DNA from: Eunapius fragilis
Taxonomy: Eukaryota > Porifera > Demospongiae > Spongillida > Spongillidae
Assembly (NCBI GenBank): GCA_963681505.1
Contig: OY811979.1
Span: forward strand, 7,734,736 to 7,798,735
Length of the DNA: 64,000 bases
Direction of reading: 5' to 3'
Shown: one piece after another, positions 34,865-62,200 of the stretch
Numbering within the stretch: the stretch's first letter is position 1
Layout of the letters: each line of letters opens with the position of its first letter
Translations under genes and position numbers: made by a program
Notes under the pieces: generated by a model
Seen by the model: the letters and a program-made list of their open reading frames with translations, nothing else
Told to the model about the DNA's origin: nothing
Databases searched by the model: none

Positions 34865-35310
34865 GCCCTGCGGATGTCCTTGTTCAGGGATGGGACAGAG
34901 GAAAGCCTGCGGCCTTTGACGTTACTGTTGCTTCACCCCTTTCACCAGTAACCCTCAACAATGCCAGTACATCTGTGGGAGCATGTGGCCAATGACACCA
35001 GATGCCAGGAGTTGGGCTGGACATGTATCCCCTTAGCCATAGAAACATACAGTAACTGGGGGATGGAGGCCCAAGTGTTTTTTTTTTTTCCATAACGCCT
35101 CTCTACTTGCTATTGGCCAGGCCATTTCCAAACCCAAAATGCTGGGTGACATCAATGGCCAGCTCAACATGTCACTGGTGAGGTCAGTGGCTAGGGCCAT
35201 CATGGGGAGAGAAAATGTCCAGATAGGTTAGTAGAACTGTAGGTTTGTTAGCGGCATCTATTGTAAGTTATTGTAATTGTGTTTGTCCATTTATCCTGCT
35301 GTAATAATAA
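34865..35310 (+). mobile_element. RLE non-LTR retrotransposon, 3' fragment (lineage A)
   Basis: It begins in the endonuclease region (gcggatgtccttgttcaggg, encoding ADVLVQGWDRGKPAAFDVTV) and continues to the element's 3' tail (gttagcggcatctattgtaa) and a TAA tract. It is nearly identical to 57660-58180 but has indels, a deletion of part of the reading frame near 34982 and a run of ten T near 35080. 5'-truncated next to an AAT-rich tract. Confidence 0.85.
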
Positions 35311-35340
35311 TAATAATAACATGATGCTATGATTCACACT

Positions 35341-36300
35341 CCATTCTGTGGCACCCCAAAGGTACAATCAGCTCACAGTCAGGTGTGCAGCAAGGGGACC
35401 CGCTGGGCCCAATGCTGTTTGCTCTTGTTCTTCGAAAGCTTGTTTCAAGCATAGAATCAGATGACGGGTGCTTTGACCTAAGTCTTTATTTGTGGTATCT
35501 GGATGATGGCGTGCTCGCAGGTGTAAGGTCGGCAGTAGTGCGTGCCCTGCATTTGATTGAAGAGCTGGGGCCACATTTTGGGCCTCACATCAATCATTCC
35601 AAATGTAAAATGCTCAGCAAGAATGGCAAACTCCCATTTTCCAGATACAGTAAAGTCCTCCATCCTTCCTAATTTGGAGATCCTGGGGTCACCAATTGTG
35701 GACTTCATATACTGTTCCCGATTCTTTGCCGAGAAACGCAGCCATTTTAGGGCTTTGCTGAGCTTTAACTGATGTCTCTGCTGTTGACCTCCATGTTGCT
35801 ATTTCACTTCTCCACATGTGTGGTGGTTATTGTAAGTTTGTTCATCTAGCTAGAACCATACCTACAAGCCTCTGCTCTGACTCTGGGATAGAGGCAAGCC
35901 TGCTGCCTATGATATAACAGTCACTTCACCCCTCACTCCTGCCACCTTAAGAGATGCCAGTACTTCCTCAGGGGCAGCAGCCCATGCTGCAGAATGAAGA
36001 AAACATTCCACCAATGATGCCAGGTGTCAGGAGCTGGGGTGGGTGTGCATCCCACTGACCATGGAGACCTTTGGGCATTGGGGGAAGGAGGCCAAAATGT
36101 GATCTCATCATGCCTAGCATCTTTACTGTCCATCCACCAAGGTCGCTCCAAATTCGTTGCCCTGTTTGTGGTTCTAGCTAGATTAGATCAATATCCAGGG
36201 CCATCATGGGTGTAGTTCTTTAGAACATTTGTGCATAATGTAGTGTAGTGTAGTTAGTTCTTGAGTGGTGTACTATTGTTTTTTGCTTGAATAATAAATA
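35341..36300 (+). mobile_element. RLE non-LTR retrotransposon, internally deleted copy
   Basis: 35341-35870 encodes the reverse transcriptase palm (SGVQQGDPLGPMLFALVL, then the YLDDGVLAG box read from WYLDDG) and thumb with frameshifts near 35665 and 35772. At about 35880 it jumps to the endonuclease C-terminal part (TSSGAAAHAAE-like sequence, frameshifted) and ends at about 36280 with a tail like that of the copy at 42066-43880 (gagtggtgtactatt). The catalytic parts are broken. Confidence 0.8.
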
Positions 36301-36329
36301 ATAATAAGCATAATTTTGAAAAAAATAAT

Positions 36330-37240
36330 AGCAGGCAATTACAGCCTATAACTCCAAAGTCATCTCTCATAACACAATCACGATTGAGTCTGTCCTTGCT
36401 TCTCCCATTCCTCAGAGAGAGCTTTCCAGCAAGATTGATGAGGAGCAATTCAAATCTTTATTAGAAGCTTCCTCCCCAGCCAACAAGGTCAGACTGCTGT
36501 CTATATCAGCCCCTCATTCACCTTCATGGCTGTCAGTGGTCCCTTCCAAGGGTGAGGGTGTTGGTAGATCTGTGTGTCCCTTTTGCCCAGAGGTTGCCCT
36601 TGATCCCCTGGGTCACCATGCTGCAACATGCAGGCATAGGGGAGATGTGGTGGTTAGGTATAATCATTTGCGTGATGTCATTGTCGATTTCTGTCGGCGA
36701 GCTCATCTATGTATGACCGTGGAGAAGGGCCATGGTCTTACCAGGGACCACAGCCACACCAGACCTGCTGATGTGCTCATTGCAGGGGGGGGGGGGGGGG
36801 GACAGAGGAAAGCCTGCAGCGTTTGATGTCACAGTAACGTCACCTCTCTGCCCAACCATACTGAGGGATTCATGTCGAATGTCTGGTGCAGCTTCTACAG
36901 CAGCGGAGACCCGTAAGCTACCCAGCAATGGCCCCAAATGTCAAGAATTGGGGTGGACTTGCATACCCTTAGCGGTGGAGACCTTCTGCAACTGGGGTAA
37001 GGAAGCTCACCTCACGTTCTCTAGGTTGGCATCCCACCTTGCCATCAGCATGTCCTCTCCCAAACCTTCCATCTTGGCAGATATCTACAGCAGGTTGAAT
37101 ATCACTTTGGCTAGATCCATTGCCAGAGCCATCCTGGCAAGGGAGCACCAGATCTAGTGACTTGACGTTGTTTGTGTGTGTCATTGCTGTAATGTTGTAA
37201 TATTATATTCTTAATAATAATAATAAATAATAATAATAAT
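36330..37240 (+). mobile_element. RLE non-LTR retrotransposon, endonuclease half
   Basis: Begins after a TAA-rich tract in the region before the endonuclease (SYNSKVISHNTITIESVLAS). It contains the CCHC knuckle (CPFCPEVALDPLGHHAATCR, C-x2-C-x9-H-x4-C), RYNHLRDVIVDFCRRAH and RPADVLIA, then a 17-base G run (36785-36801) that breaks the frame, and the end of the endonuclease to ARAILAREHQI and a stop, followed by (TAA)n at 37208-37262. Confidence 0.85.
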
Positions 37241-37289
37241 ATTTCTCAATAATAATAATAATATATGCACTGCTCAGGTCTTTATGTAT

Positions 37290-37960
37290 ATAATATTATC
37301 ACAGACCATTACTACGATTGCCAGCATTGTGTGATGGTTGTGGTAGCCAATTCACCACTGGACATGCCCTCGACTGTAGAAAGGGAGGTTTAGTAATTCA
37401 AAGACACAATGAGATAAGAGATGCCCTTGGTGACTTGGCTTCAATTGCCTATAAAGAAGTTTTGAGAGAACCGGTGATAAGAGAACCGAATGTCCAGAAA
37501 AATGTTCCTGTTCTAGTTGCTGACCTTTCTGTTCATGGTGTGTGGCAGTCTCAAACTACTACTTTTTTTGATGTTAGAGTAGTCGACTCAGATGCCAGCT
37601 CCTATGTACAATGGGATGTAAATGCGGTGCTTTCTTCTATCGAGCACATTAAGAAACAGAAATACTCACAAGCAGCTGATTGTGTACATGCTTCGTTTAC
37701 ACCTTTTTTTGTGACTGCAGATGGGGCAGAGGGTGTTGAAGGAAAGGCATTCATGCACCTCCTATCAGAAAAAATTGCTGCAACTTGGCATAAATCAAAC
37801 AGTGAAGGGATGGGTTATGTGCGGCAAGGCTGATGTTTGCTATCCTTCGTGCTACAAATTTGTGCATTCGTGGGAGTCGGGTGAAGTGGAGGAGAAGGAT
37901 GGGGATAGAAGACGGAGCAGGACTTCCATACATGCAGGAGTGACTTTATTCAATTAAATT
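37290..37960 (+). mobile_element. 3' fragment of a second RLE non-LTR lineage
   Basis: The open frame 37318-37833 (171 codons, read-through upstream to PLLRLPALCDGCG) has a different knuckle, CDGCGSQFTTGHALDC (C-x2-C-x7-H-x3-C), then GLVIQRHNEIRDALGDLASI and an endonuclease core LVADLSVHGVWQSQTTTFFD followed by VRVVD. That order (CCHC, RHNE.RD, D..(x)n..FDV) parallels the main family but the sequence is clearly distinct. It also sits between ATT/TAA-rich tracts. Confidence 0.7.
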
Positions 37961-38078
37961 TTATTAATTTTATTAATTTCTTTATTTATTTATTTTCTTT
38001 GTTCTTTACAAAAGTAGTTATACGCCCAAAGTTCTCTGCTATAATATTATATTATTATTAAATAATAATAATAAAGAG

Positions 38079-39386
38079 TTGGCTGACTCTGACCTCCATG
38101 TAGCGTTCTCGTTGCTTCGAATTTGTGGAGGTTTCTGCAAGCTAGTCCACATTTCAAGAACCACTCCCCCAAGTCTATCCTCTGAGGCTCTACGTGCCTT
38201 TGATGGGGAGACCAGATCCTGCTTCTCAGCCTGTCTTGCTGCAGATGTCACGGATGCCGCCTGGCAACAAGCCCAACTAAGCCTCTCCTTTGGCGGGCTT
38301 GGACTCCGCTCCCTTGCACTCCATTCTAGCTCAGCATTCCTGGCATCATTTTCAGCCTCAGGTGTAGGCAATACCAATAACCTCCATCTTCAGCAATCTT
38401 TAATCACATTCAACAGTCGGGTCTCACATTCTGATGCAGTTACCATCGAGTCAGTTCTTGCTGATCAGCCTCGCCAGCGATCCTTGTCCCAGAAGTTGGA
38501 CAGACATCTCTTTGATTCACTTTTGATGTCCTCCTCTCCAGCAAATAAGGCTCGGCTATTATCAGCTTCGGCCCCTCATGCCAGTGCTTGGCTCTCAGCT
38601 GCTCCCTCTGTTGGCCTAAATCTGCATCTACACTCACCGGAATTCCAAACTGCTGTCAGATGGTGGCTGGGTCTGGACACTTCAGTTGCCTCAGTGTGCC
38701 CATTTTGCCCAGGGGTCGCTCTTGACTCTTTTAGTCACCATGCTGTGTCCTGTAGACATGGAGGTGACACAGTCATCAGACACAACAAATTGCGTGACAG
38801 CATTGCAGATTTATGTCGCAAGGCACACCTGTCTGTCAGTGTGGATGCAGGTCATGGTATGTGTCGTGACATCAATCACTCCCGTCCAGCTGATGTCCTT
38901 GTGGAGGGTTGGGAGAGAGGCCAACCTGCTGCCCTAGACATCACAGTCACTTCTCCCCTCACTCCAGTCTCCTTGAAAGACTCAAGTAGATCTGCAGGTG
39001 TAGCAGCTCTGTCTGCTGAAACTAGGAAGCATGCTGCCAATGACCCAAAGTGTCGTGAATTGGGATGGATGTGCATACCAATGGCAGTTGAGACATACGG
39101 TACCTGGGGGAAGGAGGCCCAACACTTGTTCTCAAGACTGGCTACCTATTTAGCAATCCATCTTTCCTGCCCCAAGTCAAGAGTTCTGGCTGACATATAT
39201 GACCGCCTAAACATCTGCTTGGTGAGAGCTGTGGCAAGAGCCATCCTGGCAAGAGGCCTTTGCCCAGTCCATCTTACATGTATTGTTTTCCTTGTAGCTG
39301 TAGTGTTAATAGTTCGGTTGTACAATAATAGTAATATTAGTCCTTTTGCGTATTTGTGTAATGTAGTCTGCATTTTTGTTCAATAA
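38079..39386 (+). CDS. RLE non-LTR ORF, thumb and endonuclease, uninterrupted
   Basis: 435 codons, 5'-truncated just after a TAA tract (38051-38075). The frame covers the region after the polymerase palm (HVAFSLLRICGGFCKLVHIS, QAQLSLSFGGLGLRSLALHS), the WWLG box, the knuckle CPFCPGVALDSFSHHAVSCR, RHNKLRDSIADLCRKAH, the endonuclease core SRPADVLVEGWERGQPAALD with ITVTSPL, and ETRKHAANDPKCRELGW. The family part ends at ARAILARG near 39260; the remaining codons are 3' tail. No catalytic polymerase motif is present, so the copy cannot be active by itself. It is one unit of the microsatellite nest. Confidence 0.8.
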   Translation: MADSDLHVAFSLLRICGGFCKLVHISRTTPPSLSSEALRAFDGETRSCFSACLAADVTDAAWQQAQLSLSFGGLGLRSLALHSSSAFLASFSASGVGNTNNLHLQQSLITFNSRVSHSDAVTIESVLADQPRQRSLSQKLDRHLFDSLLMSSSPANKARLLSASAPHASAWLSAAPSVGLNLHLHSPEFQTAVRWWLGLDTSVASVCPFCPGVALDSFSHHAVSCRHGGDTVIRHNKLRDSIADLCRKAHLSVSVDAGHGMCRDINHSRPADVLVEGWERGQPAALDITVTSPLTPVSLKDSSRSAGVAALSAETRKHAANDPKCRELGWMCIPMAVETYGTWGKEAQHLFSRLATYLAIHLSCPKSRVLADIYDRLNICLVRAVARAILARGLCPVHLTCIVFLVAVVLIVRLYNNSNISPFAYLCNVVCIFVQ

Positions 39387-39402
39387 TAATAATAATAATA
39401 AG

Positions 39403-39590
39403 TCCAAGTCAGATGTGCTGAATGACATTTATGGCCGGCTTAATGTCCATCTAGTTCGTGCCAATGCTACAGCCATCCTCTCTAGAATTATCCCACTGTC
39501 ATAGAGCTAGATCCGTTTGTGTGTGTAATGTGTTTAATAATTGTATCTTTATTAAATAAAAAAATAAAATAATAATAATAATAATAATAC
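39403..39590 (+). mobile_element. RLE non-LTR 3' fragment (lineage B)
   Basis: About 130 bp (SDVLNDIYGRLNVHLVRANATAILSR region and tail gtcatagagctagatccgtt) nearly identical to the 3' end of the full-length copy at 58223-61745, between TAA tracts. Confidence 0.85.
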
Positions 39591-39591
39591 A

Positions 39592-39815
39592 TTGCAGTAA
39601 GTCCAAAGCCTTGGTCAGCATTTACCAACAGCTGAACCTCTCTTTGGTTCGCTGCGTAGCCAGGGCCTTACTTTCCCGTGTCGGCACCCAGACCCCAGAA
39701 GGTTAAAAACTTTAGTTTAGGACTCCCACGTGATGTCATTTTGTTCATGTTATTGATACGTGCTACTGTTTAATGTTGTAATGTTATTATGAATAATAAT
39801 AATTTTTAATAATAA
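39592..39815 (+). mobile_element. RLE non-LTR 3' fragment (separate lineage)
   Basis: Begins cagtaagtccaaagcc and encodes SIYQQLNLSLVRCVARALLS-like sequence (with one base variation), then a distinct tail and (AAT)n. No closely related full copy in the window. Confidence 0.75.
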
Positions 39816-39817
39816 TA

Positions 39818-40080
39818 ACCGTCTTGCCTCTCTACTTGCCATCGGCCAGGCCATTCCCAAAACCAAAATGCTGGGTGACATCTATGGCCACCTCAACATG
39901 TCACTGGTGAGGTCAGTGGCTAGGGCCATCATGGGGAGAGAAAATGTCCGGATAGGTAGAAGAACTGTAGGTTTTTTAGCGGCATCTATTGTAAGTTAGT
40001 TATTCTTATAATAATGTAATTGTGTTTGTCCTTTTATCCTGCTGTAACTGTATTCTGTATTCCATTTTTTTAAAATAGAA
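39818..40080 (+). mobile_element. RLE non-LTR 3' fragment (lineage A)
   Basis: Begins gtcttgcctctctacttgcc and is nearly identical to 57936-58180, including the tail ttagcggcatctattgtaag. It is 5'-truncated next to (AAT)n. Confidence 0.85.
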
Positions 40081-40310
40081 ATGTAAAATCATAATAAAAA
40101 GTATAGAATACATAATACATTTAGACATATGGGGCAAAAACAATAATAATATTACACATTAAATAAAAATGATAATGACAAGAACTATTTAAGCATGACG
40201 TTCAGGCAGAGATACTAGGTAACCCTGCTCCATCATCCATTCCAAATGCACTCCTCCATTTAAATAGTAATCATTATTATTAAGAATAAATGCATATACA
40301 AGATATACAA
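40081..40310. other. AT-rich spacer
   Basis: Short A/T-rich stretch between a plus-strand fragment and the 3' end of the minus-strand copy; ATT tracts at 40275-40283 and 40310-40322. Confidence 0.5.
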
Positions 40311-40364
40311 GATTATTATTATTGCACATCAAAACACCACTAAGTCTACATGTATTGTTCAGCG

Positions 40365-41993
40365 TTAATAACCATCCAGAGTGATGACTCTGGACAACAG
40401 TGCCCTGACATTGGCTCGGACAAGGGTTATGCTCAGTCGTCCATAGAGGGATGCTGTTGCTGTTGACTTTGGGCAATTGAACCTCATGGCTAATCGAGAG
40501 GCCAGCTGTGACAATGCCCATTTAGCCTCTGTACCCCAGCACCCATACGTCTCTACCACTACTGGAATAGAGACCCAACCCAGTTCTGCACACTTCACAT
40601 CATTTGCCTGATGTTTTCTCACTTCTGTAGCATAGGCTGCTGACCCTGCTGTCACACTCGCTTCATGTAAGGTACTTGAAATAAGCGGAGATGTGACAGC
40701 AAAATCAAAAGCAGCCGGTTTCCCTAGCATCCAGTTGGCGGCCAGGACATCAGCTGGGTGAGTGTGGTGCTCATCGCGTCCTAATCCACTCCCTGGCTCC
40801 ACTTGAACACCGATGCAGGCTCGTCTACAGGACTCTGCAAAAACATCACGAAGCCTGTTGTGCCTGGTAACAACATCCCCACCATGCTTGCACGTTAAGG
40901 CATGGTGCCCTAGTGGATCCAGAGAATGAGGGCAGTGTGGACACATTGAACAGTGGGCAACCCCGATTCCAAGCCACCATTGTATGGCCGCTTGAAATTC
41001 AGCAGGCTCCAGATGTAAAGTAAGCCCTGGAGAAGGAACCACGGAAAGCCAGGCTGAGGCATGTGGGGATGACACAGAAAGCAAACGTGCTCTATCTGGA
41101 ACTGATGACTTTGATACCAACTGCCTAAACATTGCATCTTCAATCTCTCCCGAAAGTGCTTTCTGGCTGCTTGGAGTGTTCGTCAAAGATTCAAAATAAA
41201 TAGCCTTGCTAGGTGGAATGCAACGGTTAAAATCATCAATGGACTGCAAGAGATGTTGCTGAGGAGCTGAAGACAACCCTGACTTGCACACAGAAGCAAT
41301 AAAACAGGCTGGTGAATGCTTTGAAAGACGACGAAGCCCTAAACCACCTCTACTTAGGCTGAGTTGTGCCTGCTCCCAAGCATCATCACTGGTGTCCACT
41401 CCTGTGCACAATGCAAAGCAATGACGGACATCATTGTCAAAGTACTTGAATCCTTCAGCAACAAGAGAAGGGGGTGTGGATCTTGCCAAGTGCACCATTT
41501 TACAAAATGCACCGCATGTCCGTAGCAGAAGTAAAGCAACTTGGGGGTCAACAGAGCCAACCTCCTCAAGCTGAGAAAGCAATTGAGAGGCCTGCGCACA
41601 TTTTTGAGACACAAAGTTAGCACAAAAAATTGTGTCCCCAATAGGAGATCCCAGTATCTCAAGATGAGGCATGTTGGATTGCTTCATCTGAGATGAAAAA
41701 CCACTCAAGTCATTCTGGCTATATAGCTCACATTTTGATGGATTAATCACCAGTCCTAATGGAGGGCCTAGTTCTTGGATTATATAGAGTGCCTGTAAAA
41801 CTGATTGCTTTGGACCTGCAACCACACCATCATCAAGGTACCAGGCATGGAAAAGCAACCTTGATGCGTCTTCATCCATGGCAATGGCACTCACAAGCTT
41901 GTGCAGTACAAGACAGAAGAACATGGGACCTAGAGGGTCACCCTGTTGAACCCCTACCTCTGATGTTACCGTGCCCAAGGGGTGCTGCAACAA
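40365..41993 (-). CDS. RLE non-LTR ORF, minus-strand copy, uninterrupted from motif B
   Basis: 542 codons. 5'-truncated just before polymerase motif B: it opens LQHPLGTVTSEVGVQQGDPL, with the YLDDG box at residues 52-56, the thumb (PPLGLVINPSKCELYSQNDL), QAQLSLSRGGLGLRRLSKHS, WWLG, the knuckle CPHCPHSLDPLGHHALTCKH (C-x2-C-x8-H-x4-C), RHNRLRDVFAESCRRA, THPADVLAANWMLGKPAAFD with FAVTSPL, and EVRKHQANDVKCAELGW, ending RALLSRVITLDGY. Note THPAD where most copies have (S/T)RPAD. The family 3' tail runs to about 40310. It is head-to-head with the plus copy at 42066, only the (TAA)n region between them. Motif A (first catalytic Asp) is missing, so it is dead despite the open frame. Confidence 0.85.
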   Translation of the reverse strand: MLQHPLGTVTSEVGVQQGDPLGPMFFCLVLHKLVSAIAMDEDASRLLFHAWYLDDGVVAGPKQSVLQALYIIQELGPPLGLVINPSKCELYSQNDLSGFSSQMKQSNMPHLEILGSPIGDTIFCANFVSQKCAQASQLLSQLEEVGSVDPQVALLLLRTCGAFCKMVHLARSTPPSLVAEGFKYFDNDVRHCFALCTGVDTSDDAWEQAQLSLSRGGLGLRRLSKHSPACFIASVCKSGLSSAPQQHLLQSIDDFNRCIPPSKAIYFESLTNTPSSQKALSGEIEDAMFRQLVSKSSVPDRARLLSVSSPHASAWLSVVPSPGLTLHLEPAEFQAAIQWWLGIGVAHCSMCPHCPHSLDPLGHHALTCKHGGDVVTRHNRLRDVFAESCRRACIGVQVEPGSGLGRDEHHTHPADVLAANWMLGKPAAFDFAVTSPLISSTLHEASVTAGSAAYATEVRKHQANDVKCAELGWVSIPVVVETYGCWGTEAKWALSQLASRLAMRFNCPKSTATASLYGRLSITLVRANVRALLSRVITLDGY

Positions 41994-42000
41994 TGGTTGT

Positions 42001-42065
42001 TATAATAATAATAATAATAAATTTAATGTTGTAATTTTATGTTATTTTAACAATAATAATAATAA
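42001..42065. repeat. (TAA)n tracts between head-to-head copies
   Basis: Two TAA blocks (42001-42020 and about 42050-42065) with 30 bases between. Minus-strand copy to the left, plus-strand copy to the right, both starting with their truncated 5' ends. Confidence 0.95.
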
Positions 42066-51563: not shown

Positions 51564-51568
51564 ATAGC

Positions 51569-52889: not shown

Positions 52890-55109
52890 TTGGCCCCAAA
52901 AGTGATATCTGAACCGCTATCTCTTGGTCACAATTTTGACATTCTCAGTGTTCTCAAATCATTTCCCAAGGACACTGCTGCTGGGCCCTCTGGTCTTCGG
53001 GTTCAGCATCTTCTTGATGCTGCTTCCATTCCCCTTGCAACCTCAATCTGCTCCTCTCTAAAAAGCATTGTCAACCTTCTAGCTTCTGGTAAAGCCCCTA
53101 ATGACATTGCCAAATTTCTAGTTGGAGGAGCTTTAACTGCACAAAATAAGATCAAGCCAGATTGTACCCTTGATGTCAGACCCATCGCTGTGGGTGAAAC
53201 CTTAAGACGCCTAACAGGGAAGTGCCTTTGTTTGTTGGTAAAGATGAAAGCATCCGATTTCTTTGATCCCCTTCAATTTGGAGTTGCCTGTCTACTGGGA
53301 TTGGAGAAAGTCATACATGGTATCAGAAATTGTGATGATCAACATTGGGGGGATGAAGACTTTGCAGTGCTAAAAGTGGACTTAAAGAATGCCTTTAACC
53401 TTGTATCCAGACAGGCATTCCTAGATGAATGTGCTTTCGTATTCCCTAATCTCCTTCCATGGGCTTTCTGGTGCTATGGAGTTCATTCCATTCTGTGGCA
53501 CCCCATGGGCCATCTAAGCTCTGAATCTGGAGTCCAACAAGGTGATCCATTGGGTCCTCTTCTCTTTGCACTGGTTCTTCACAAGGTCATTAGTGCCATA
53601 GATGCAGATGATGAGTGCCTTAATTTGCTGTACCAAGCATGGTACATGGATGATGGGGTCTTAGCAGGTAAGAGATCAGCATTGGTTCGTGCACTGTCCT
53701 TGATAATGGAGCTTGGCCCTTCACTTAGCTTGCTGGTCAACATTGGGAAGTGTGAGCTCTTTTGTAAGAACGATGTGAGCATGTTCCCTGAGGCTCTTAA
53801 AGTTTCTACAGTGCCGCATTTTGAGATTCTAGGGGCTCAGATTGGTGACTACATATATTGTGCTAGCTTTGTCTCTACCAAGAGATCAGAGGCACTGAAA
53901 CTCCTTTTAAAGCTGGAGGATGTCGCTATCAAAGACCCCCAGGTTGCCTTACTGCTGTTACGCATGTGTGGCAGCTTTTCCAAGCTTGTCCACTTAGCAA
54001 GAACTACACCAACAACACTTGTTTCTGAGGCCTTTCAGCAGTTCGACTCTGATGTTAAGCATTGTCTTTCATCATGCATAGCCAATAGAATTTCAGATTC
54101 AGCATTGCATCAAGCACAAATCAGTTTATCCAGAGGTGGTCTTGGCCTTCGGTCTCTTTCAAAGCATTCTTGTGTGGCATTCATTGCCTCTTTCTGCTCT
54201 TCTGGGTTTGCGGCATCAGACAATTCTCACCTTATTCAAGCAGTTGCTCATTTTAATAGTCTGGTCTCTCAAAGTGATGCAACTACAGAGACATCTCTGG
54301 TTGCCTCTCCACCAAGTCAAAGATCTTTGTCCTTAAAGCTAGACCATTTTGATTTCGAGCTTCTTTTTGACCAATCTTCTCTGGCTGATAAAGCACGTTT
54401 GCTTTCGGTATCAGCACCTCATGCTGCTTCATGGCTTTCTGTCATTCCTTCTGTTGGTTTGGGTTTGCACTTGGATCCTGATGAATTTCGGACGGCTGTA
54501 AAGTGGTGGCTTGGCATGGAGACTTCTTACGCCTCCAATTGTGTTCTCTGCCCTGATAGTGCCCTTGACCCTCTTGGCCATCATGCGGCAACTTGCAAAC
54601 GTGGTGGTGATGCTGTCCTCAGGCACAACAAATTAAGGGACAATCTGGTTGAATCATTCCATCAGGCCCACATTCATGTTCAAGTTGAGGCTGGTTCTGG
54701 TCTTAGCCACGATCATTCTAATTCTCGGCCTGCAGACATCCTAGTTTTTGACTGGGATCATGGTAAGCCTGCGGCGCTGGACCTGACTGTTGTTTCACCG
54801 CTCAATGCAAACATTTTAAAAGAAGCGGGTGCAACAGCTGGTGCAGCAGCTCAGGCTGCTGAGGCACGAAAACATACTACCAATGACCAGAAGTGCACTG
54901 AATTGGGATGGTCTTGTGTACCTCTTGCTGTGGAGTCATACGGTGCCTGGGGCAAGGAAGCCCAGGAGTGTTTCGCACTCCTTGCCTCACGATTGGCTGT
55001 CCACACATCAAGCAGCAAGTCCAAGACAACTTTTGACCTGTACAGTCGACTGAACCTGGCTCTGGCTAGATCGATTGCCAGAGCAATAAATTCTAGATCG
55101 TTCAACTAG
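52890..55109 (+). CDS. RLE non-LTR retrotransposon ORF with complete reverse transcriptase and endonuclease
   Basis: 739 codons without a stop, the best-preserved catalytic copy. Landmarks: AGPSGLRVQHLLDAA from residue 31; VRPIAVGETLRRLTGKCL near 97-113; motif A LKVDLKNAFN at 161-170 (D164); GVQQGDPLGPLLF at 214-226; YMDDGVLAG at 252-260; QAQISLSRGGLGLRSLSKHS near 408-427; WWLG at 539-542; CCHC knuckle C551, C554, H564, C569; RHNKLRD at 578-584; SRPADILV at 612-619; AALDLTVVSPL at 628-638; EARKHTTND at 658-666. The last three make a PD-(D/E)XK-like nuclease. The N-terminal Cys cluster and zinc fingers of full-length copies are missing because of 5' truncation; the ATG at 52890 is probably fortuitous. 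Reverse transcription primed at a nicked target is the expected role. Flanked by AAT tracts on both sides. Confidence 0.92.
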   Translation: MAPKVISEPLSLGHNFDILSVLKSFPKDTAAGPSGLRVQHLLDAASIPLATSICSSLKSIVNLLASGKAPNDIAKFLVGGALTAQNKIKPDCTLDVRPIAVGETLRRLTGKCLCLLVKMKASDFFDPLQFGVACLLGLEKVIHGIRNCDDQHWGDEDFAVLKVDLKNAFNLVSRQAFLDECAFVFPNLLPWAFWCYGVHSILWHPMGHLSSESGVQQGDPLGPLLFALVLHKVISAIDADDECLNLLYQAWYMDDGVLAGKRSALVRALSLIMELGPSLSLLVNIGKCELFCKNDVSMFPEALKVSTVPHFEILGAQIGDYIYCASFVSTKRSEALKLLLKLEDVAIKDPQVALLLLRMCGSFSKLVHLARTTPTTLVSEAFQQFDSDVKHCLSSCIANRISDSALHQAQISLSRGGLGLRSLSKHSCVAFIASFCSSGFAASDNSHLIQAVAHFNSLVSQSDATTETSLVASPPSQRSLSLKLDHFDFELLFDQSSLADKARLLSVSAPHAASWLSVIPSVGLGLHLDPDEFRTAVKWWLGMETSYASNCVLCPDSALDPLGHHAATCKRGGDAVLRHNKLRDNLVESFHQAHIHVQVEAGSGLSHDHSNSRPADILVFDWDHGKPAALDLTVVSPLNANILKEAGATAGAAAQAAEARKHTTNDQKCTELGWSCVPLAVESYGAWGKEAQECFALLASRLAVHTSSSKSKTTFDLYSRLNLALARSIARAINSRSFN

Positions 55110-55156
55110 TTGATTTTGTAGCTTCTAATAATACCTGTAAAATAATAATAATAATA

Positions 55157-55428
55157 TTCCTCTTGTAGTGGAGACATATGGATGTTGGGGTACTGAGGCT
55201 ATTCAGGCACTATCAAGACTTGCCACACGTTGTCCACCAGGCAGGTCTCCCCAAGTCGTTAGTGTGTAACGAACTATTTGGTAGACTAAGTTTAGCCCTT
55301 GTGAGAGCAAACTCTCGAGCCATCCTATCCCGCTCCCTATAAACTGTGCATGTTGATGCTGTAGGTAGATTTTGTTTTGTGCATACTGTATCATATATCT
55401 GTTACTGTATATCATTCTTAATAATAAT
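55157..55428 (+). mobile_element. RLE non-LTR 3' fragment
   Basis: Follows (AAT)n at 55141-55154. It encodes VETYGCWGTEA and, with a frame slip, LFGRLSLALVRANSRAILSR before a stop and a distinct tail to another AAT tract. Confidence 0.8.
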
Positions 55429-55800
55429 TGTCAGCTGGGGCAGCCGCCTTGTCCACTGAAGAGCGAAAGCATACTGAGAATGACCCCAAATGCAATGCAT
55501 TGGGCTGGTATTGTGTACCTCTGGTCACGGAGTCCTATGGTGCTTGGGGAAAGGAAGCCATGGACTCGTTTAAGATGCTTGCCTCCCGTCTTGCCATCAT
55601 ATCGGGCAAACCAAAGTCAGTTGTGCTGTCTGACCTGTATAGCAGGCTCAACTTGCATCTGGTAAGGGCAAATGCGACAGCAATCCTTTCCAGGTGGCTC
55701 CCATCTTAAAGTTTATAGAACTGTAGCATGATTTATTAATAATTAATGCATGTTGTTTCTCCTAAATATTTGTATTCCTATATTATATATATAAGACTTT
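55428..55800 (+). mobile_element. RLE non-LTR 3' fragment (lineage C, copy 1)
   Basis: Starts at tgtcagctggggcagccgcc after AATAAT. The open frame 55428-55709 reads GAAALSTEERKHTENDPKCN, GWYCVPLVTESYGAWGKEAM and ends ATAILSRWLPS. A second copy at 61860 starts at exactly the same internal position. Confidence 0.9.
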
Positions 55801-55879
55801 TATTTTTATTAACAGGAATACAAGATGCAGCAGAATACACTAATCAGAATAAATGCACTAAATAACGAATGCTATTATT

Positions 55880-56950
55880 AATACATACATACATATCCAG
55901 ACACACTGAGACACACTGGCTATGAAAGTGACAATGAGGAACTATCCCCCTCCTGAAGGGAACAGCCACATCGTAAGAGGAGGGCTCGGGCATTGGCTCG
56001 CACAAGAGTCAAATTAAGGCGGCCATACAAGCTGCAGACAACCTTGGACTTGGGGGAGTTGGTCCTTGTGGCAAGGTATGATGCAAGCCGTGAAAAAGCT
56101 TGCATCGCTTTGTTGCCCCAGGCTCCATATGACTCGGCCACAAGGGGAATACATGTCCATCCTAGCTCGGAACACTTGGCATCATTGGCAGAGTGCTTCC
56201 TTAGCTCAGCAGCAACCGCTGCTGACCCTGCTGTGCGACCCGCTTCAGAGATAAGAGTAGGGTTAAGCGGAGACACCACAGTAAGGTCAAAGGCAGCAGG
56301 CTTGCCACAGAGCCAATTGGAAGCTAGGATGTCAGCAGGGCGTGTGTTCCGAAGCTCATGTCCTAGTCCACTACCGGCCTCTGCCTTGGCGCTGATGCAG
56401 GCATGATGGCAGGTTTGAAGCACTACATCCCTGGGCTTGTTGTGCCTGGATACAGCATCACCACCTCTCTTACATGTTATTGCATGGTGACCTAGGGGAT
56501 CCAAGGGATGTTCTGGACACAATGCACAGGGAGGTGAGCCAGGTGAGGTGTTTAGCCCCAGCCACCACTTGATGGCCATTTGGTGCTCGTTGGGGTCTAA
56601 GCTTAGACCCAGGCCTGGAGATGGTACTACAGAGTGCCAAGCAGAGGCATGGGGAGAGGAGATAGATAGGAGACGAGCCTTGTCAGCCACAGAGCTCTGG
56701 GATAGAAGAGAGTTAAATTGAATGTTTTCTAATGCAGCTGATAGAGTGTGTTGTCGGCAAGGAGAAGATGCAAGACTGTTAATATTAATTGCATTCTCAG
56801 GGGGAACACACCTATTGTAGGAATTGACCGCATCAGCCAGGAAATTATCTAATGGTGAGGCAAGGCCTGCAGTACTGATGGAGGCGATAAAGGCTGCATT
56901 AGAGTGATGAGCTAGTGAACGAAGCCCCAGGCCACCTCTGCTTATAAGAC
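55880..56950 (-). pseudogene. RLE non-LTR ORF, minus-strand thumb and endonuclease
   Basis: The minus-strand frame is open from about 56945 (LISRGGLGLRSLAHHSNAAF) to 55920. It contains LLSQSSVADKARLLSISSPH, WWLGLNTSPGS, the knuckle CALCPEHPLDPLGHHAITCK, RHNKPRDVVLQTCHHAC, TRPADILASNWLCGKPAAFD with LTVVSPL and ELRKHSANDAKCSELGW, ending in a Ser-rich tail. Truncated at the 5' side within the thumb, next to (TAA)n and head-to-head with the plus copy at 56975. No polymerase motif. Confidence 0.85.
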
Positions 56951-56973
56951 TTAATAATAATAATAATAATAAG
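56951..56973. repeat. (TAA)n tract between head-to-head copies
   Basis: About seven TAA units separate a minus-strand and a plus-strand copy, both 5'-truncated in the same general region of the ORF. Confidence 0.95.
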
Positions 56974-56974
56974 C

Positions 56975-58180
56975 CATTGTGCTGACTATCTTAAGCTCTT
57001 TGATGAGGAGGTAAGGCTATGCTTCACCTCCTGCATTGCAGTGGACGTCCCTGACCCAAATTGGCAGCAAGCACAACTCAGTCAGAGTTTTGGTGGGCTT
57101 GGCTTTCGGTCCCTTGCTTTGCACTGTTCTGCTGCGTTTATAGCTTCCCTTGCTTCATCAGGATTTGGTAGTGCCGATAACATACACATGCTTCAGGCTG
57201 TGACCCGCTTCAATACTCAGGTTCCCCCTGATGAGTCAATCACAGCTGAGGAGGTTCTGGTCAACCTGCCTCCACAAAGAGCTCTGTCTAAGAAGCTGGA
57301 TATGCATGTTTTCCAATCACTGCTATCTTCCTCCTCTCCAGTGAATAAGGCTCGGATCCTTTCCGTTTCTGCCCCTCATGCGGGTTCTTGGATCTCAGTC
57401 ATCCCTTCTACTGGTCTGGATCTGCACCTTAACTCTGCTGAATGTCAGGTAGCACTCAGATGGTGGTTGGGTCTTGACACCTCTGGAGGTTCTCTGTGTC
57501 CACATTGTCCTGATATTGCCCTTGACCCTCTAGGTCATCATGCAGCCTCCTGCAGACATGGTGGTGATGTGGTTGCAAGGCACAATCACTTGCGGGATAT
57601 CTTTGCTAACTTTTGCCGCCAGGCCCACCTTTCTGTGAGGGTTGAAGTTGGGTATGGCTTAGCTAGGGACCATGTTAACTCTCGTCCTGCGGATGTCCTT
57701 GTTCAGGGATGGGACAGAGGAAAGCCTGCGGCCTTTGACGTTACTGTTGCTTCACCCCTTACACCAGTAACCCTCAACAATGCCAGTACCTCTGTGGGAG
57801 CAGCAGCCTATGCTGCTGAACTTAGAAAGCATGTGGCCAATGACACCAGATGCCAGGAGTTGGGGTGGACATGTATCCCCCTAGCTGTAGAAACATACGG
57901 TAACTGGGGGAAGGAGGCCCAGAGTGTTTTCTCCCGTCTTGCCTCTCTACTTGCCATCGGCCAGGCCATTCCCAAACCCAAAATGCTGGGTGACATCTAT
58001 GGCCACCTCAACATGTCACTGGTGAGGTCAGTGGATAGGGCCATCATGGGGAGAGAAAATGTCCGGATAGGTTAGAAGAACTGTAGGTTTTTTAGCGGCA
58101 TCTATTGTAAGTTAGTTATCCTTATAATATTGTAATTGTGTTAGTCCTTTTATCCTGCTGTAACTGTATTCTGTTGTCAA
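56975..58180 (+). mobile_element. RLE non-LTR copy, lineage A, with open endonuclease frame
   Basis: The coding part runs from CADYLKLFDEEVRLCFTSCI at about 56983 through a stop at 58073, followed by the lineage tail (gttagcggcatctattgtaa-type) and AAT tracts. It is the parent-like sequence for the fragments at 34865, 39818 and 43883. Confidence 0.9.
57041..58075 (+). CDS. RLE non-LTR ORF, thumb and endonuclease, uninterrupted
   Basis: 344 codons from an internal Met; the true open part extends upstream to about 56976. It contains QAQLSQSFGGLGFRSLALHC, WWLGLDTSGGS, the knuckle CPHCPDIALDPLGHHAASCR (C-x2-C-x9-H-x4-C), RHNHLRDIFANFCRQAH, SRPADVLVQGWDRGKPAAFD with VTVASPL and ELRKHVANDTRCQELGW, ending AIMGRENVRIG. 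The polymerase is missing by 5' truncation. Confidence 0.88.
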   Translation: MDVPDPNWQQAQLSQSFGGLGFRSLALHCSAAFIASLASSGFGSADNIHMLQAVTRFNTQVPPDESITAEEVLVNLPPQRALSKKLDMHVFQSLLSSSSPVNKARILSVSAPHAGSWISVIPSTGLDLHLNSAECQVALRWWLGLDTSGGSLCPHCPDIALDPLGHHAASCRHGGDVVARHNHLRDIFANFCRQAHLSVRVEVGYGLARDHVNSRPADVLVQGWDRGKPAAFDVTVASPLTPVTLNNASTSVGAAAYAAELRKHVANDTRCQELGWTCIPLAVETYGNWGKEAQSVFSRLASLLAIGQAIPKPKMLGDIYGHLNMSLVRSVDRAIMGRENVRIG

Positions 58181-58222
58181 TAATAATTATTAAATAATAA
58201 TAATAATAATAAAATAATAATA
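58181..58222. repeat. (AAT)n tract directly before the start codon of a full-length element
   Basis: aataataattattaaataat and further AAT units run up to the ATG at 58223, leaving essentially no separate 5' untranslated region. Confidence 0.9.
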
Positions 58223-58352
58223 ATGGCAGCAAGCAGCTCGGGTGACGAAGGAAGTTTGAAGAAGTCTAAGTTGTTCTTGCAACGGGAACAATGCTCGGTG
58301 CAAGTCGTGTGTTTGCTGCAAGTTAAAGCGTGCTTGTTTCAGTGGCCTTCCC

Positions 58353-59759
58353 ATGAAGCGTGGCCGCTGTTCTAACGCAAATTCTAATTTAAACTTGAAT
58401 ATCGCAGCTGCACAACCTTCTTCCGAGTTTACTCCACTGTTGTCGGTTTCAAATTCATCGGTTTCCCACCATCCACAAGCGGATTCACATCCGCAATTGC
58501 CCGTTTCTCCAGGCGCTTCACGACCTCCTTTACAACCGCAACCGCAAACACACCATTTGTCTCAAACCCGGACTTCGTCTTCACAACCGCGCCGCCAGTC
58601 AACGTCACCAGTGCCGCTTCCACAACCCCAACAACTATCAGCCCTATCGCAGCAGCCATCTCGAATGGTTCAAAGGTCATCACCATCGAAATCGTCACCT
58701 CAGTCATCACCAATTCCTAATGATATGGCTTCGTCTAGGGAACCATGCATTGTGCAAGGTTGTCAGGCACTTGTTGCACAGTCAATGTGGAAGGCCCACA
58801 TGGAAGGTCATATTCGAGGTACTTTTTGTGGTTTGGTTCCAGACTCCTGGCTGAAGGATAAGAAACTTTTCATTTGTCACCAGTGCCTTAGTCTTGTTGC
58901 CATCTCCCACAAGCAGTCACACAGCAAGAATTGCGTCACAAAGCCACCTATGTTGTCATCTGTTGCACTTTCAATCCCAATAGTTGGCTCGGGCCAGGTT
59001 TCTGAGACCTTGCCTTCCCTCAGCGATATTTGTAACCTCAGATGTCCTACTCTCCGATTTGTGCCCAATAATGCTAAAGCGGCATTTGCCCGAGTCCTAT
59101 CTGCTACCCTTAGGTCAGTAGTCAGTGAGAACACAGTAGAGGCTTGGACAAAGCTTTTAATGCTCCCAAAGTGTGTACTGCCAAGTGCCAAGCGTCGAGG
59201 CCGCCACAACAGGCCTGTTCCAATTGATGTTCTCTGTAGGATGTGGTCGGAAGGTCGCCTAAGTGATCTGTGGCATAGGGCCCTGCAACGCTCACCCACC
59301 ACATCACATTCCAATCGTGCTGAAGGAGACCCTGGAAATAAAAAGATCATTTCTGCCATCTCATTGGCACAAGATGGGCTTTATGGAAAGGCTTGCCAAG
59401 CTCTCACATCATCAGGAGTGGCACCAAATAATGATGATACATGGAAACTCTTGGTCAGTAAGCACCCTCATAGTCCATGCCCGTCTGTACCCCAGGTTTC
59501 AGATGTTGAATTCAAGCTTCCTAATGATCAAAATCTCATGTCCATCCTTAGGTCATTCCCCAAGTTGACTGCAGCAGGTCCTTCAGGTTTAAGAATTCAA
59601 CACCTTATTGATGTAGCTGAAGTACCACTACAGACTCCACTTCTTCAGTCCCTCAAGGCAGTGATTAACATCTTATCCTCAGGAAAAGCTCCTAAAGAAT
59701 TATCTATCTACCTGGCTGGGGGGAATCTTACAGCTCTTAACAAGGCAAACCTTAGGTGA
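58353..59759 (+). pseudogene. RLE non-LTR ORF, N-terminal half of the full-length copy
   Basis: 468 codons. Upstream of 58353 the same frame is open through the Cys cluster CSCNGNNARCKSCVCCKLKR (58271 on), but the ATG at 58223 is in another frame, so a one- or two-base loss lies near 58265. Then a long Ser/Pro/Gln-rich linker (residues about 15-125), a zinc finger CIVQGCQALVAQSMWKAHME with GH, a second (CHQCLSLVAISHKQSHSKNC), RFVPNNAKAAFARVLSATLR, ISLAQDGLYGKACQALTSSG and the polymerase opening FPKLTAAGPSGLRIQHLIDV. The frame ends at a shift near 59757 (LTALNKANLR). Confidence 0.85.
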
Positions 59760-60048
59760 TATTCGCCCAATTGCTGTTGGGGAGGTTTTGCGCCGCCTTG
59801 TGGGAAAATGCCTTTGTGCTGCCCTCAGAGTGAAGGCTGCATCATTCTTTGAGCCATACCAGTTTGGAGTGGCCTGCCCTCGTGGAGCCGAAAGAATTAT
59901 TCATGGCCTGAGAGCGTGTGTGGAGGAGCATTGGTTAGAAGAGGACTTTGGAGTGTTAAAGGTGGACATGAAGAATGCCTTCAACCAGGTTTCCCTCCAA
60001 GCTCTTCTCTCTGAGTGTGCTGAGCATTTCCCAGAGCTCTTGCCTTGA
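59760..60048 (+). pseudogene. RLE non-LTR ORF, reverse transcriptase fingers and motif A
   Basis: Continues from the frameshift with DIRPIAVGEVLRRLVGKCLC, PYQFGVACPRGAERIIHGLR and motif A LKVDMKNAFNQVSLQALLSE, ending PELLP followed by TGA at 60046, where relatives have a Trp codon. Confidence 0.88.
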
Positions 60049-60090
60049 GTTGGTTGGTGCTATGGGCAACATCCATACCTCTGGCATACT

Positions 60091-61698
60091 TTGGGTTGTT
60101 TGACCTCAGAATCGGGTGTCCAACAAGGAGATCCCCTTGGTCCCCTGCTATTCTCTCTTGTATTAAATGTCCTTGTTAAAGCAATCTCAGAAGACAAAGC
60201 TTGTTCCAGCAACCTTTTCCATGCATGGTACCTAGATGATGGTGTCTTGGCTGGCCCAAGGCAGTCTCTGTGCCGGTGCCTCAGTCTTCTCCAGGTTCAG
60301 GGTCCAGCTCTAGGTATCTTTGTCAACTTGTCAAAGTGTGAGGTTCTCTCCCGCCACAATCTTGATGTGTTCCCTTCTGGGATGAAAGCATCTGACAAGC
60401 CAAACATTGTAATACTTGGTGTGGCCATTGGAGACCTGGACTTTTGCTCGTCATTCATCGCTACCAAGCGGATGGAGGCCAGTGCTCTCCTATCCCAACT
60501 TGAGCAAGTTGGTGTGTTGGATCCCCAGGTTGCATTGGTCCTCCTTCGTCTGTGTGGAGGGTTTTGTAAGCTGGTACACCTAGCCCGATCAACACCACCA
60601 TCTCTATCTTCACAAGCTCTCAGCCTTTTTGACAAAGACATCCGTAGGGTTTTCAGTGAGTGCACTGGTGTTGATACCTCTGATACTGCCTGGAAACAAG
60701 CCCAGCTCAGCCTGAGCAGAGGAGGCCTAGGCCTGCGATCTTTGTCTCACCACTCTTCTGCAGCTTACATCTCCTCCATTTGTTCATCGGGCTTTGGATC
60801 CAAATCAGTCCACCACCTATCTCAAGCTGTGGAGGTCTTTAACAACTTCGTTTTACCAGTAGAAGCCATTAATGTTGAGTCTGTTCTTCTTTCCCCTCCG
60901 ATTCAGAAAACACTGTCTTCCAAAATTCATGACCATCTATTCGACGATCTGCTAACTCTATCTTCATTGGCAGACAAAGCCCGTCTATTGTCCATCTCTT
61001 CACCCCATGCTTCAGCCTGGCTGTCTGTAACTCCCTCTGAGGGCCTTGGACTCCATCTAGATCCACCTGTTTTCCAGATTGCTGTAAAGTGGTGGCTTGG
61101 CCTCGATACTTCAGAGGGCTCTCAGTGTACCCTGTGTCCCGGTGTGCTTGATCACCTTGGCCACCATGCAGTCACCTGCAAATATGGTGGAGATGTGGTC
61201 TCCCGCCACAACAAGATCAGAGAAATCCTGGTGGAGACCTGTCGGCGTGCACACATAGGTGTTCAGGTGGAAGTGGGCAACAATCTCACACATGACCACA
61301 ATAAGACTCGCCCAGCTGATATCTTGCTATCCAATTGGTTCTTAGGCAAACCAGCAGCACTAGATGTCTCCATCACGTCTCCGCTAAACCCTTTAACCCT
61401 TTTGGAAGCGGGAGTCTTGGCCAAGTCTGCTGCTCAGGCCACAGAGGCGAGGAAACATCAAGCTAATGATCCCAAATGTTCGGATCTTGGATGGGTATGT
61501 GTCCCCATGGTGGTAGAATCGTATGGAGCTTGGGGCGATGAGGCCTCTTCTATCATTTCATCAATTGCCTCCAGACTCGCCACCTCTACATGCAAGTCCA
61601 AGTCAGTTGTGCTGAATGACATTTATGGCCGGCTTAATGTTCATCAAGTTCATGCCAATGCTACAGCCATCCTCTCTAGAATAATCCCGCTGTCATAG
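60091..61698 (+). CDS. RLE non-LTR ORF, palm to endonuclease of the full-length copy
   Basis: 535 codons in the same frame as the previous piece, open from 60049 on. It starts with GCLTSESGVQQGDPLGPLLF, then the YLDDGVLAG box, VNLSKCEVLSRHNL, QVALVLLRLCGGFCKLVHLA, QAQLSLSRGGLGLRSLSHHS, WWLGLDTSEGS, the knuckle CTLCPGVLDHLGHHAVTCKY (C-x2-C-x8-H-x4-C), RHNKIREILVETCRRAH, TRPADILLSNWFLGKPAALD with VSITSPL and EARKHQANDPKCSDLGW, ending AILSRIIPLS. With one stop and one frameshift upstream, this is the copy closest to a complete coding element. Confidence 0.9.
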   Translation: MGCLTSESGVQQGDPLGPLLFSLVLNVLVKAISEDKACSSNLFHAWYLDDGVLAGPRQSLCRCLSLLQVQGPALGIFVNLSKCEVLSRHNLDVFPSGMKASDKPNIVILGVAIGDLDFCSSFIATKRMEASALLSQLEQVGVLDPQVALVLLRLCGGFCKLVHLARSTPPSLSSQALSLFDKDIRRVFSECTGVDTSDTAWKQAQLSLSRGGLGLRSLSHHSSAAYISSICSSGFGSKSVHHLSQAVEVFNNFVLPVEAINVESVLLSPPIQKTLSSKIHDHLFDDLLTLSSLADKARLLSISSPHASAWLSVTPSEGLGLHLDPPVFQIAVKWWLGLDTSEGSQCTLCPGVLDHLGHHAVTCKYGGDVVSRHNKIREILVETCRRAHIGVQVEVGNNLTHDHNKTRPADILLSNWFLGKPAALDVSITSPLNPLTLLEAGVLAKSAAQATEARKHQANDPKCSDLGWVCVPMVVESYGAWGDEASSIISSIASRLATSTCKSKSVVLNDIYGRLNVHQVHANATAILSRIIPLS

Positions 61699-61859
61699 AG
61701 CTAGATCCGTTTGTGTGTGTAATGTGTTATGTAATGAACTAATAATAATAATAATAATCCTGTACGTGCATTTATATTCCCATTTGTGTATCTCTTGTAT
61801 CTTGTATTCTTTAACCAAGGATTATTAACCTGTCATTGTTAATAGTAACAATAATAATG

Positions 61860-62200
61860 ATTGTCAGCTGGGGCAGCCGCCTTGTCCACAGAAGAGCGAA
61901 AGCATACCGAGAATGACCACAAATGCAATGCTTTGGGCTGGTGTTGTGTACCTCTGGTCACGGTGTCCTATGGTGGTTGGGGAAAGGAAGCCATGGGCTC
62001 GTTTTAGATGCTTGCCTCTAGTCTTGCCATCATATCGGGCAAACCAAAGTCAGTTGTGCTGTCTGAACTGGATAGCAGGCTCAACTTGCATCTGTGAGGG
62101 CAAATGCGACAGCAATCCTTTCCAGGTGGCTCCCATCTTAAAGTTTATTAAACTGTAGCATGGTTTATTAATAGTTCATGCATGTCCTAAATATTTATAT
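61860..62200 (+). mobile_element. RLE non-LTR 3' fragment (lineage C, copy 2)
   Basis: Begins tgtcagctggggcagccgcc after AATAATAATGAT, the same 5' breakpoint as the copy at 55428. The frame carries a Trp-to-stop change (61996-62010 region) and a deletion near 62094. It is the last element of the nest. Confidence 0.88.

Follow-up and report, generated by a model that had tools for sequence, protein, structure and literature searches.

What has allowed so many retroelement copies to gather side by side, with runs of TAA between them, at a single locus of the sponge Eunapius fragilis? The locus is interstitial: the window, a stretch of 64,000 nucleotides, lies at positions 7,734,736-7,798,735 of a contig of 9,792,930 bp, i.e. 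at 7.73-7.80 Mb of 9.79 Mb. The nest studied here occupies positions 34,855-62,190 of this window. With seven proteins encoded in the window as tblastn queries, retroelement copies were found over 34,855-62,135. Reading these matches together with the DNA, we count 20 non-LTR retrotransposon copies or fragments, of a type that encodes a reverse transcriptase (RT) and a C-terminal restriction-like endonuclease, 17 on the forward strand and three on the reverse strand (Table 1). The initial annotation had proposed a nest of about 18 copies or fragments; the nest stands, while the count becomes 20. Three of the copies (9, 13 and 17) are inverted, which corrects that annotation.

Table 1. Element copies and associated features of the nest, in window coordinates; percentages in the last column followed by a locus name are identities to that locus.
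Feature	Position	Strand	Evidence
Copy 1, 3' part of subfamily A, ending in (TAA)6 (tract 35302-35319)	34855..35319	+	tblastn
Copy 2, RT and endonuclease, internal deletion; starts 6 bp past TAA tract	35325..36307	+	tblastn
Copy 3, endonuclease part, frame breaks; 5' end 25 bp from tract	36332..37262	+	tblastn; DNA 92.8% to L074
TAA tracts closing copy 3	37212-37262	+	
Copy 4, highly diverged, related to the endonuclease part; TTA/TAA tract at end; protein-defined 5' end 65 bp from tract	37327..38074	+	weak tblastn, 26-38%
Copy 5 (C), 5'-truncated at TAA tract	38073..39401	+	tblastn; 96.4% to L031
Copy 6, D-type 3' end, starting at TAA tract	39400..39588	+	tblastn, DNA comparison
Copy 7, 3' end fragment flanked by TAA tracts	39588..39818	+	DNA comparison
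Copy 8 (A), 3' end, starting directly past TAA tract	39819..40060	+	97.5% to L008
Copy 9 (F), inverted; 5' end 4 bp from tract 42003-42020	40270..41999	-	544-aa frame; 98% to L002 and L005
Short remnant flanked by two TAA tracts	42003..42065	+	
Copy 10 (B), 5'-truncated at TAA tract, TAA tracts at end	42066..43880	+	605-aa stop-to-stop frame
Copy 11 (A), 3' end only, flanked by TAA tracts	43882..44086	+	DNA comparison
Copy 12 (G), ATG start 8 bp past TAA tract, frame broken, split by LTR element	44094..52035	+	tblastn
LTR retrotransposon, presumably Copia-type, inserted in copy 12	47174..51563	+	
Copy 13, inverted; 5' end at TAA tract 52812-52836	52158..52811	-	tblastn; 3' end 95.9% to L067 over 123 bp
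Copy 14 (H), RT and endonuclease, 5'-truncated at TAA tract, TAA tract at end	52890..55155	+	746-aa open frame; 96.8% to L010
Copy 15, 3' end fragment flanked by TAA tracts	55156..55427	+	tblastn
Copy 16 (E), 3' end fragment	55427..55785	+	DNA comparison
Copy 17 (J), inverted; 5' end at TAA tract 56952-56972	55808..56951	-	99% to L002 over 634 bp
Copy 18 (A), 5'-truncated at TAA tract, TAA tracts at end	56971..58224	+	98.5% to L035
Copy 19 (D), full length, ATG start inside TAA tract, frame broken; N-terminal CXC-like module, C2H2 pattern, RT, endonuclease	58222..61858	+	
Copy 20 (E), 3' end fragment bounding the nest on the right	61859..62190	+	tblastn, DNA comparison

The nest contains 33 TAA tracts of at least 9 bp, 29 of them on the forward strand and four on the reverse; the remaining window has three, and a first-order Markov control yields 0.42 on average and three at most (n=100). 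The homology-defined 5' ends of 17 of the 20 copies fall within 10 bp of a tract, whereas random nest positions average 0.66 and never exceed 6 of 20 (2000 draws). The TAA-linked nest described earlier is thus confirmed. That its copies are set apart almost only by TAA/AAT tracts holds for these 17 5' ends, but neither for copies 1, 3 and 4, whose 5' ends are more than 10 bp from any TAA tract of at least 9 bp, nor for the LTR retrotransposon within copy 12. The latter, which we take to be Copia-type from its motifs, has LTRs that are 98.6% identical over 207 bp and a 5-bp duplication, ATAGC.

Could the nest have arisen by tandem or segmental duplication, or through an assembly error? Two A copies, at window position 56,971 and in L008, do share the same 5' truncation point, but their neighbours differ; moreover, adjacent copies in the nest are of different subfamilies, and similar nests recur on other contigs, such as those at 8.02 Mb and 13.17 Mb of contig C1 and at 5.47 Mb of contig C2. 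Given that the nest contains several subfamilies, with protein identities of approximately 45-80% by tblastn, its copies are not one duplicated unit, and we find an origin by duplication or misassembly hardly credible.

Seven stop-to-stop frames are 1,169-1,246 aa long, each a single ORF in which the RT is followed by a CCHC knuckle and a PD-(D/E)XK-type endonuclease. RVT_1 is the sole Pfam match above cut-off. The endonuclease part has conserved C..C..HH..C columns, and the C-terminal Cys/His knuckle and the RHN, PAD and D columns are invariant in all seven window endonucleases; this assignment is motif-based, the AlphaFold model of the seven window proteins having a pLDDT of 39.6, which is too low for use. 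In a profile search of the PDB, R2 proteins were the best matches (E = 2.6e-7), although sequence similarity is very low (32 bits). R2 shares the knuckle and the R-H-N / P-(A)D / D endonuclease columns, whereas its target is the 28S rDNA. The knuckle spacing read from our alignment is C-x2-C-x8-9-H-x4-C, versus C-x2-3-C-x7-8-H-x4-C reported for the R2 group in the excerpts available. With RT, knuckle and endonuclease in this order, the elements can be classed, by their motifs, as non-LTR retrotransposons of the R2-group (restriction-like-endonuclease) type. N-terminal zinc fingers, another mark of that group, are represented by the C2H2 pattern described below.

To follow the TAA association outside the window, 5' junctions were scored at 33 of the 38 loci chosen for their element copies; L005, L007, L010, L014 and L027, where the junction is unclear or outside the locus, were left out. 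With junction coordinates placed by hand, 18 of the 33 have at least 9 bp of TAA/TTA, versus 3 of 695 host slices; L001 and L009 are the window's own copies, and without them the count is 16 of 31. The 5' flanks are 79% AT compared with 56% in host DNA, as would be expected if AT-rich DNA in general were targeted and TAA runs were struck because they are AT-rich and, owing to the tails, numerous. However, when these 33 flanks are shuffled at matched AT content, a mean of only 1.7 and at most 6 of 33 carry such a run (n=1000), and other AT repeats are scarce in the flanks, with (TA)5 in one, (AAAT)3 in none, and nine-base runs of A or T in two. Subfamily V, furthermore, has TAA runs of 21-33 bp at 4/4 junctions. 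By contrast, a TAA run of 9 bp is absent from subfamilies III (0/5) and II (0/2), whose flanks are nonetheless AT-rich, and for these two AT-only targeting may apply; the subfamily contrast, 0/7 versus 18/26 junctions with a TAA run (p = 0.0015), was picked after the data had been seen. Because of the shuffle result, we hold AT content to be an improbable explanation for the elements as a whole.

Two further samples bear on the same issue. Among full-length starts, 13 of 44 have TAATAATAAT within 28 bp upstream, versus 0 of 1195 host windows of 38 bp, a count that covers this orientation only, the opposite orientation being marked by TTATTATTAT upstream. Conversely, 20 of 29 loci with (TAA)8 have an element copy within 700 bp, versus 1 of 32 controls, for which the repeat was (ACA)8 and not an AT-only repeat. 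These 29 loci contain 31 of the 45 distinct tracts among the first 100 matches listed; the tracts left out include the two flanking L038, and L067 was counted as negative though a 123-bp fragment (95.9%) in it escaped the protein search. Counting each nest once, as grouped by hand, gives 15/24 versus 1/9 (p = 0.017). As some of the (TAA)8 loci lie in clusters, and the junction and start-pattern samples have loci in common, these tests are not fully independent. On the opposing side, a 9-bp TAA run is missing from 15 of the 33 junctions, TAATAATAAT is absent within 28 bp at 31 of the 44 full-length starts, and three of the 20 window copies run against the TAA strand. Hence, the initial claim of TAA targeting is borne out by the junctions and the (TAA)8 loci, but as a preference: the results support TAA as a preferred, not absolute, target of these elements.

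Is the TAA then simply the elements' own 3' tail, with random insertion and nests that reflect survival in gene-poor DNA? The 3' tails do often end in TAA, and the 15 junctions without a run would agree with such an account. The 3' ends also differ within a subfamily, and several lack a terminal TAA. (A candidate 3'UTR motif, TGCATTTA with A or T as the next base, occurred at only 6 of 30 loci and was dropped.) On the other hand, the 18 junctions with TAA are 5' junctions, 17 window copies adjoin a tract at their 5' end, and an empty site already had the repeat. At L065, a paralogue of L038 rather than its allele in a second individual, a single (TAA)8 stands between flanks 97-99% identical to those of L038, whose element is bordered by (TAA)8 on both sides. 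An account from own tails alone is therefore very unlikely.

The reading that we consider probable is that the nest is a pile-up of R2-group-type non-LTR retrotransposons that prefer (TAA)n. The N-terminal zinc modules of the element protein may let it bind TAA DNA, and the endonuclease would then nick the TTA strand. Primed by this strand, reverse transcription would start near the TAA-rich 3' end of the element RNA; the element's 5' end would finally be joined to the remainder of the tract. With a TAA tract left on both sides of the insertion, one target would become two, and later elements could insert into the tails that preceding copies had left. As the preferred TAA runs include the ends of earlier copies, copies would pile up mostly head to tail.

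Several observations are consistent with this scheme. Copies downstream of a (TAA)8 tract follow the TAA strand in 19 cases versus 2, and those upstream have the same orientation in 15 versus 4. At 5' junctions, orientation agrees with the TAA strand in 14 cases versus 3 in the window, and in 14 versus 4 in the sample that joins loci elsewhere with the window. Within the stretches analysed, 18 of 31 (TAA)8 tracts have a copy on both sides. Of 9,940 candidate matches, the 60 that were scored gave 61 rows, reduced to 59 best matches by leaving out the window itself and a second segment of a copy already counted; among these 59, five pairs of copies lie within 5 kb of each other, all in the same orientation (expected 0.078), and the 45 (TAA)8 tracts from the matches listed form 17 pairs within 10 kb (expected 0.52). 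Together with the L038/L065 pair, the recurrent nests and the tracts with copies on both sides uphold the earlier proposal that each insertion brings TAA and makes new targets; self-feeding growth of the nest is well supported, the evidence being circumstantial. Some element copies are more than 99% identical, and nest growth is presumably ongoing.

To which lineage do the elements belong? The initial annotation pointed to the R4 clade and Dong, which share with them the RT, the C-terminal restriction-like endonuclease, in the same order, and the (TAA)n target, here strong but not exclusive (18/33). According to the available part of PMC7998251, this target is reported for Dong/R4 in most insects, molluscs and cnidarians, and the R4/Dong N-terminus lacks zinc fingers but contains a Myb-like domain that is diverged. 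In contrast, a regular expression finds an N-terminal C2H2 pattern in 16/16 of the sponge proteins (sub-threshold Pfam zinc-finger matches in 2/7); the N-termini carry C2H2 and CCHC patterns, and most subfamilies seen have a Cys-rich, CXC-like module. The published CXC (tesmin/MSL2) Cys consensus (PMC3447885) matches 0/16 proteins, while a looser pattern ending in C-x-N, written after viewing the sequences, matches 13/16. No Myb/SANT match was found in seven proteins with Pfam at E up to 10, a search that a highly diverged Myb could escape. Dong has a 5' HDV-like ribozyme in the excerpt of PMC3774820; here the 5' leader is 0 to about 26 nt long, and the window and 11 loci gave no Rfam ribozyme match at gathering score, a threshold that a diverged ribozyme could also escape. 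In its accessible text, PMC5678591 ascribes zinc fingers and Myb motifs in variable number to all early-branching LINEs, which would weaken the zinc-finger argument. Nevertheless, with N-terminal zinc fingers present and no Myb match, placement in R4/Dong is unsupported, judged by the published description as far as available, and we regard membership in that clade as rather unlikely.

The closest working parallel is provided by the telomere arrays of MoTeRs, CRE/SLACS-related elements of Magnaporthe oryzae. In the portion of PMC7367193 available, these likewise form head-to-tail arrays with target-repeat tracts between members, and an LTR element is inserted in arrays there too; MoTeRs, however, are telomeric, in (TTAGGG)n, and always head to tail, whereas the nest is interstitial, in (TAA)n, and mostly head to tail, with 3/20 copies inverted. 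Microsatellite specificity is also described for some HERO families and fish Togen families (PMC4640811, available in part), with which our elements are compared by description only.

A bolder version of the preferred reading is possible, though doubtful. By analogy, the elements would form a restriction-like-endonuclease LINE lineage outside R4/Dong, whose CXC-like module might read TAA or AT minor-groove DNA and which, with almost no 5' leader, would need head-to-tail neighbours; the upstream 3' end would then serve as both target and promoter, and the nest would be an interstitial, self-enlarging array. In fly telomeres, the 3' end of the upstream HeT-A copy supplies the promoter to its neighbour. 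Subfamily II has two CXC-like modules and no TAA run at its junctions, so that a simple link between CXC and TAA is disfavoured.

Taken together, our results describe a system that is interstitial, young and abundant, and whose insertions extend the very target that they use. Given that TAA-preferring and non-preferring subfamilies coexist in one genome, a single lineage offers a comparison of how a LINE protein reads a microsatellite. The results also indicate that trinucleotide repeats can be spread by transposons, beyond slippage alone.

The nest, in the interior of a 9.79 Mb contig (C9:7734736-7798735 for the window) of a 218.9 Mb, 24-contig assembly, spans 34,855 to about 62,190 and holds 20 non-LTR retrotransposon copies or fragments, 17 on the + strand and 3 on the - strand. 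Two of them are full-length or nearly so, with an ATG at the start. The nest has 33 TAA tracts of 9 bp or longer and the remaining window 3, while a first-order Markov control predicts 0.42. The homology-defined 5' end lies within 10 bp of a TAA tract in 17 of the 20 copies, the exceptions being copies 1, 3 and 4 (numbered from the left); random nest positions give a mean of 0.66/20 and a maximum of 6/20. Two subfamily A copies, one at window position 56971 and one at 2299 of the genomic locus L008, are truncated at an identical 5' position following TAATAA, and their neighbours differ. The LTR element inside the nest, which we take to be of Copia type from its motifs, has a 5-bp duplication (ATAGC) and an in-frame stop that interrupts its long frame; the open frame on the - strand is presumably related to LTR-element reverse transcriptases, judging by motif.

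Repeats, open frame and principal element copies in the window
Feature	Position	Strand	Remarks
Tandem repeat, 36-bp unit	1756-2022		near left end
Tandem repeat, 25-bp unit	2081-2278		near left end
Tandem repeat, 317-bp unit	2748-3557		near left end
Open frame	19494-20168	-	
Near- or full-length non-LTR copy	44,094-52,035	+	begins at own ATG; frame broken
Presumed Copia-type LTR element	47,174-51,563	+	inside non-LTR copy 44,094-52,035; LTR identity 98.6% over 207 bp
5'-truncated non-LTR copy	52,890-55,155	+	746-aa open frame retained
Near- or full-length non-LTR copy	58,222-61,858	+	begins at own ATG; frame broken

Target preference outside the window was assessed by four tests, which are not fully independent. 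Among 33 copies picked by similarity alone and scored over 65 bp around the 5' end, TAA/TTA of at least 9 bp was found at 18 junctions versus 3/695 host slices, and at a 15-bp threshold at 12 versus 0/695; composition-keeping shuffles of the flanks gave means of 1.7/33 (maximum 6) and 0.01 (maximum 1), respectively. A pattern search recovered 44 full-length CXC-type starts genome-wide (reversed pattern, 0), and in 13 of these TAATAATAAT occurs no more than 28 bp upstream (26 overlapping matches), compared with 0/1195 host windows. On contig C1 and the initial part of C2, a copy lies within 700 bp of 20/29 (TAA)8 loci versus 1/32 controls, the latter being 8 (ACA)8 loci and 24 slices from the window's left part. 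With nests counted once, the figures are 15/24 versus 1/9 (p = 0.017); L067, a locus scored negative here, has a 123-bp element fragment at its tract. Finally, an insert of about 2.7 kb at locus L038 has (TAA)8 on either side, while the empty paralogue L065 has a single (TAA)8 at the same place, so that one TAA tract has become two. L063, L065 and L078 are other repeats with their own TAA tracts; L038 landed in the L065 repeat, and L078 is similar to the 3' flank of another locus, L027.

The motif is absent from the tested span at 15/33 junctions and 31/44 full-length starts, and subfamilies differ: a TAA run is present in 4/4 junctions for V, 4/6 for IV, 4/6 for F, 4/8 for I, 0/2 for II and 0/5 for III, the last of which has no CXC-like module. 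Since the flanks are AT-rich overall (79% versus 56% in host DNA), the preference of subfamilies II and III may be just for AT-rich DNA.

Nesting recurs elsewhere. Further nests lie near 8.02 and 13.17 Mb on C1 and 5.47 Mb on C2, and 18 of 31 (TAA)8 tracts are flanked by copies on either side within the stretch of DNA retrieved. Among the 59 best protein matches outside the window, 5 pairs lie no more than 5 kb apart, and both members of each pair have the same orientation (expected 0.078). Among the matches listed, 45 (TAA)8 tracts form 17 pairs within 10 kb (expected 0.52), versus no pair within 35 kb for 30 (ACA)8 tracts. At the 31 (TAA)8 tracts, downstream copies run along the TAA strand by 19 to 2 and upstream copies by 15 to 4. 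At loci L011 and L022 the 5' flank, judged by eye, looks like the 3'UTR of the same subfamily in inverted form, which suggests inversion during insertion or a head-to-head landing.

Seven translated genomic relatives have stop-to-stop frames of 1,169-1,246 aa with RVT_1, a C-terminal Cys/His knuckle and R-H-N, P-A-D and D columns. This is the layout of restriction-like-endonuclease LINEs as described in the available part of PMC5678591, although the knuckle spacing is one residue longer in most copies here. The best PDB matches by profile are R2 proteins (E 2.6e-7). N-terminally, a C2H2 pattern occurs in 16/16 proteins, a CCHC pattern is visible in the alignment, and 13/16 have a Cys-rich module with a terminal C-x-N. 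Despite its likeness to the CXC superfamily, this module does not match, in the 16 proteins examined, the published CXC consensus as excerpted from PMC3447885. Because LIN54 uses CXC domains to read the minor groove at TT and AA steps (PMC4974476, in part), a DNA-reading role for the module is a fair guess, no more. At L014/L019, subfamily II has two CXC-like modules and subfamily III an extra C2H2 pattern instead.

A (TAA)n target is not new, since it is reported for Dong (PMC7998251, accessible portion), and neither are self-target arrays, since MoTeR arrays are reported to run head to tail with target repeats as spacers between members (PMC7367193, accessible portion). Among the hits of literature searches in an open-access library, and in the parts consulted of the papers cited here, we found no description of elements with zinc fingers building an interstitial TAA nest.

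Many copies have TAA on both sides, one tract is doubled at one site, orientation is biased, nests recur and mixed subfamilies adjoin. In the mechanism we consider most likely, the TTA strand would be nicked, a TAA-rich RNA end would offer the priming site, and the tails of earlier copies would serve again as targets. Priming seems loose, since 3' ends differ within subfamilies, some with an A-rich tail ahead of TAA. At L019 and L027 a long A-rich 3' tail precedes (TAA)n, which looks as though a TAA target had received a copy of polyadenylated RNA. The 5' leader probably does not contain the promoter, as full-length copies in four subfamilies start at the ATG or within about 26 nt of it, the start being judged by eye as the point where similarity among copies ends. 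Divergent relatives also adjoin TAA tracts: the 3' end of a very divergent endonuclease relative at window 37327-38074 is such a tract, and L066 (37-65% identity), L069 (33%) and L081 (30%) lie beside (TAA)8 elsewhere. More distant families, too, may thus have TAA as their target.
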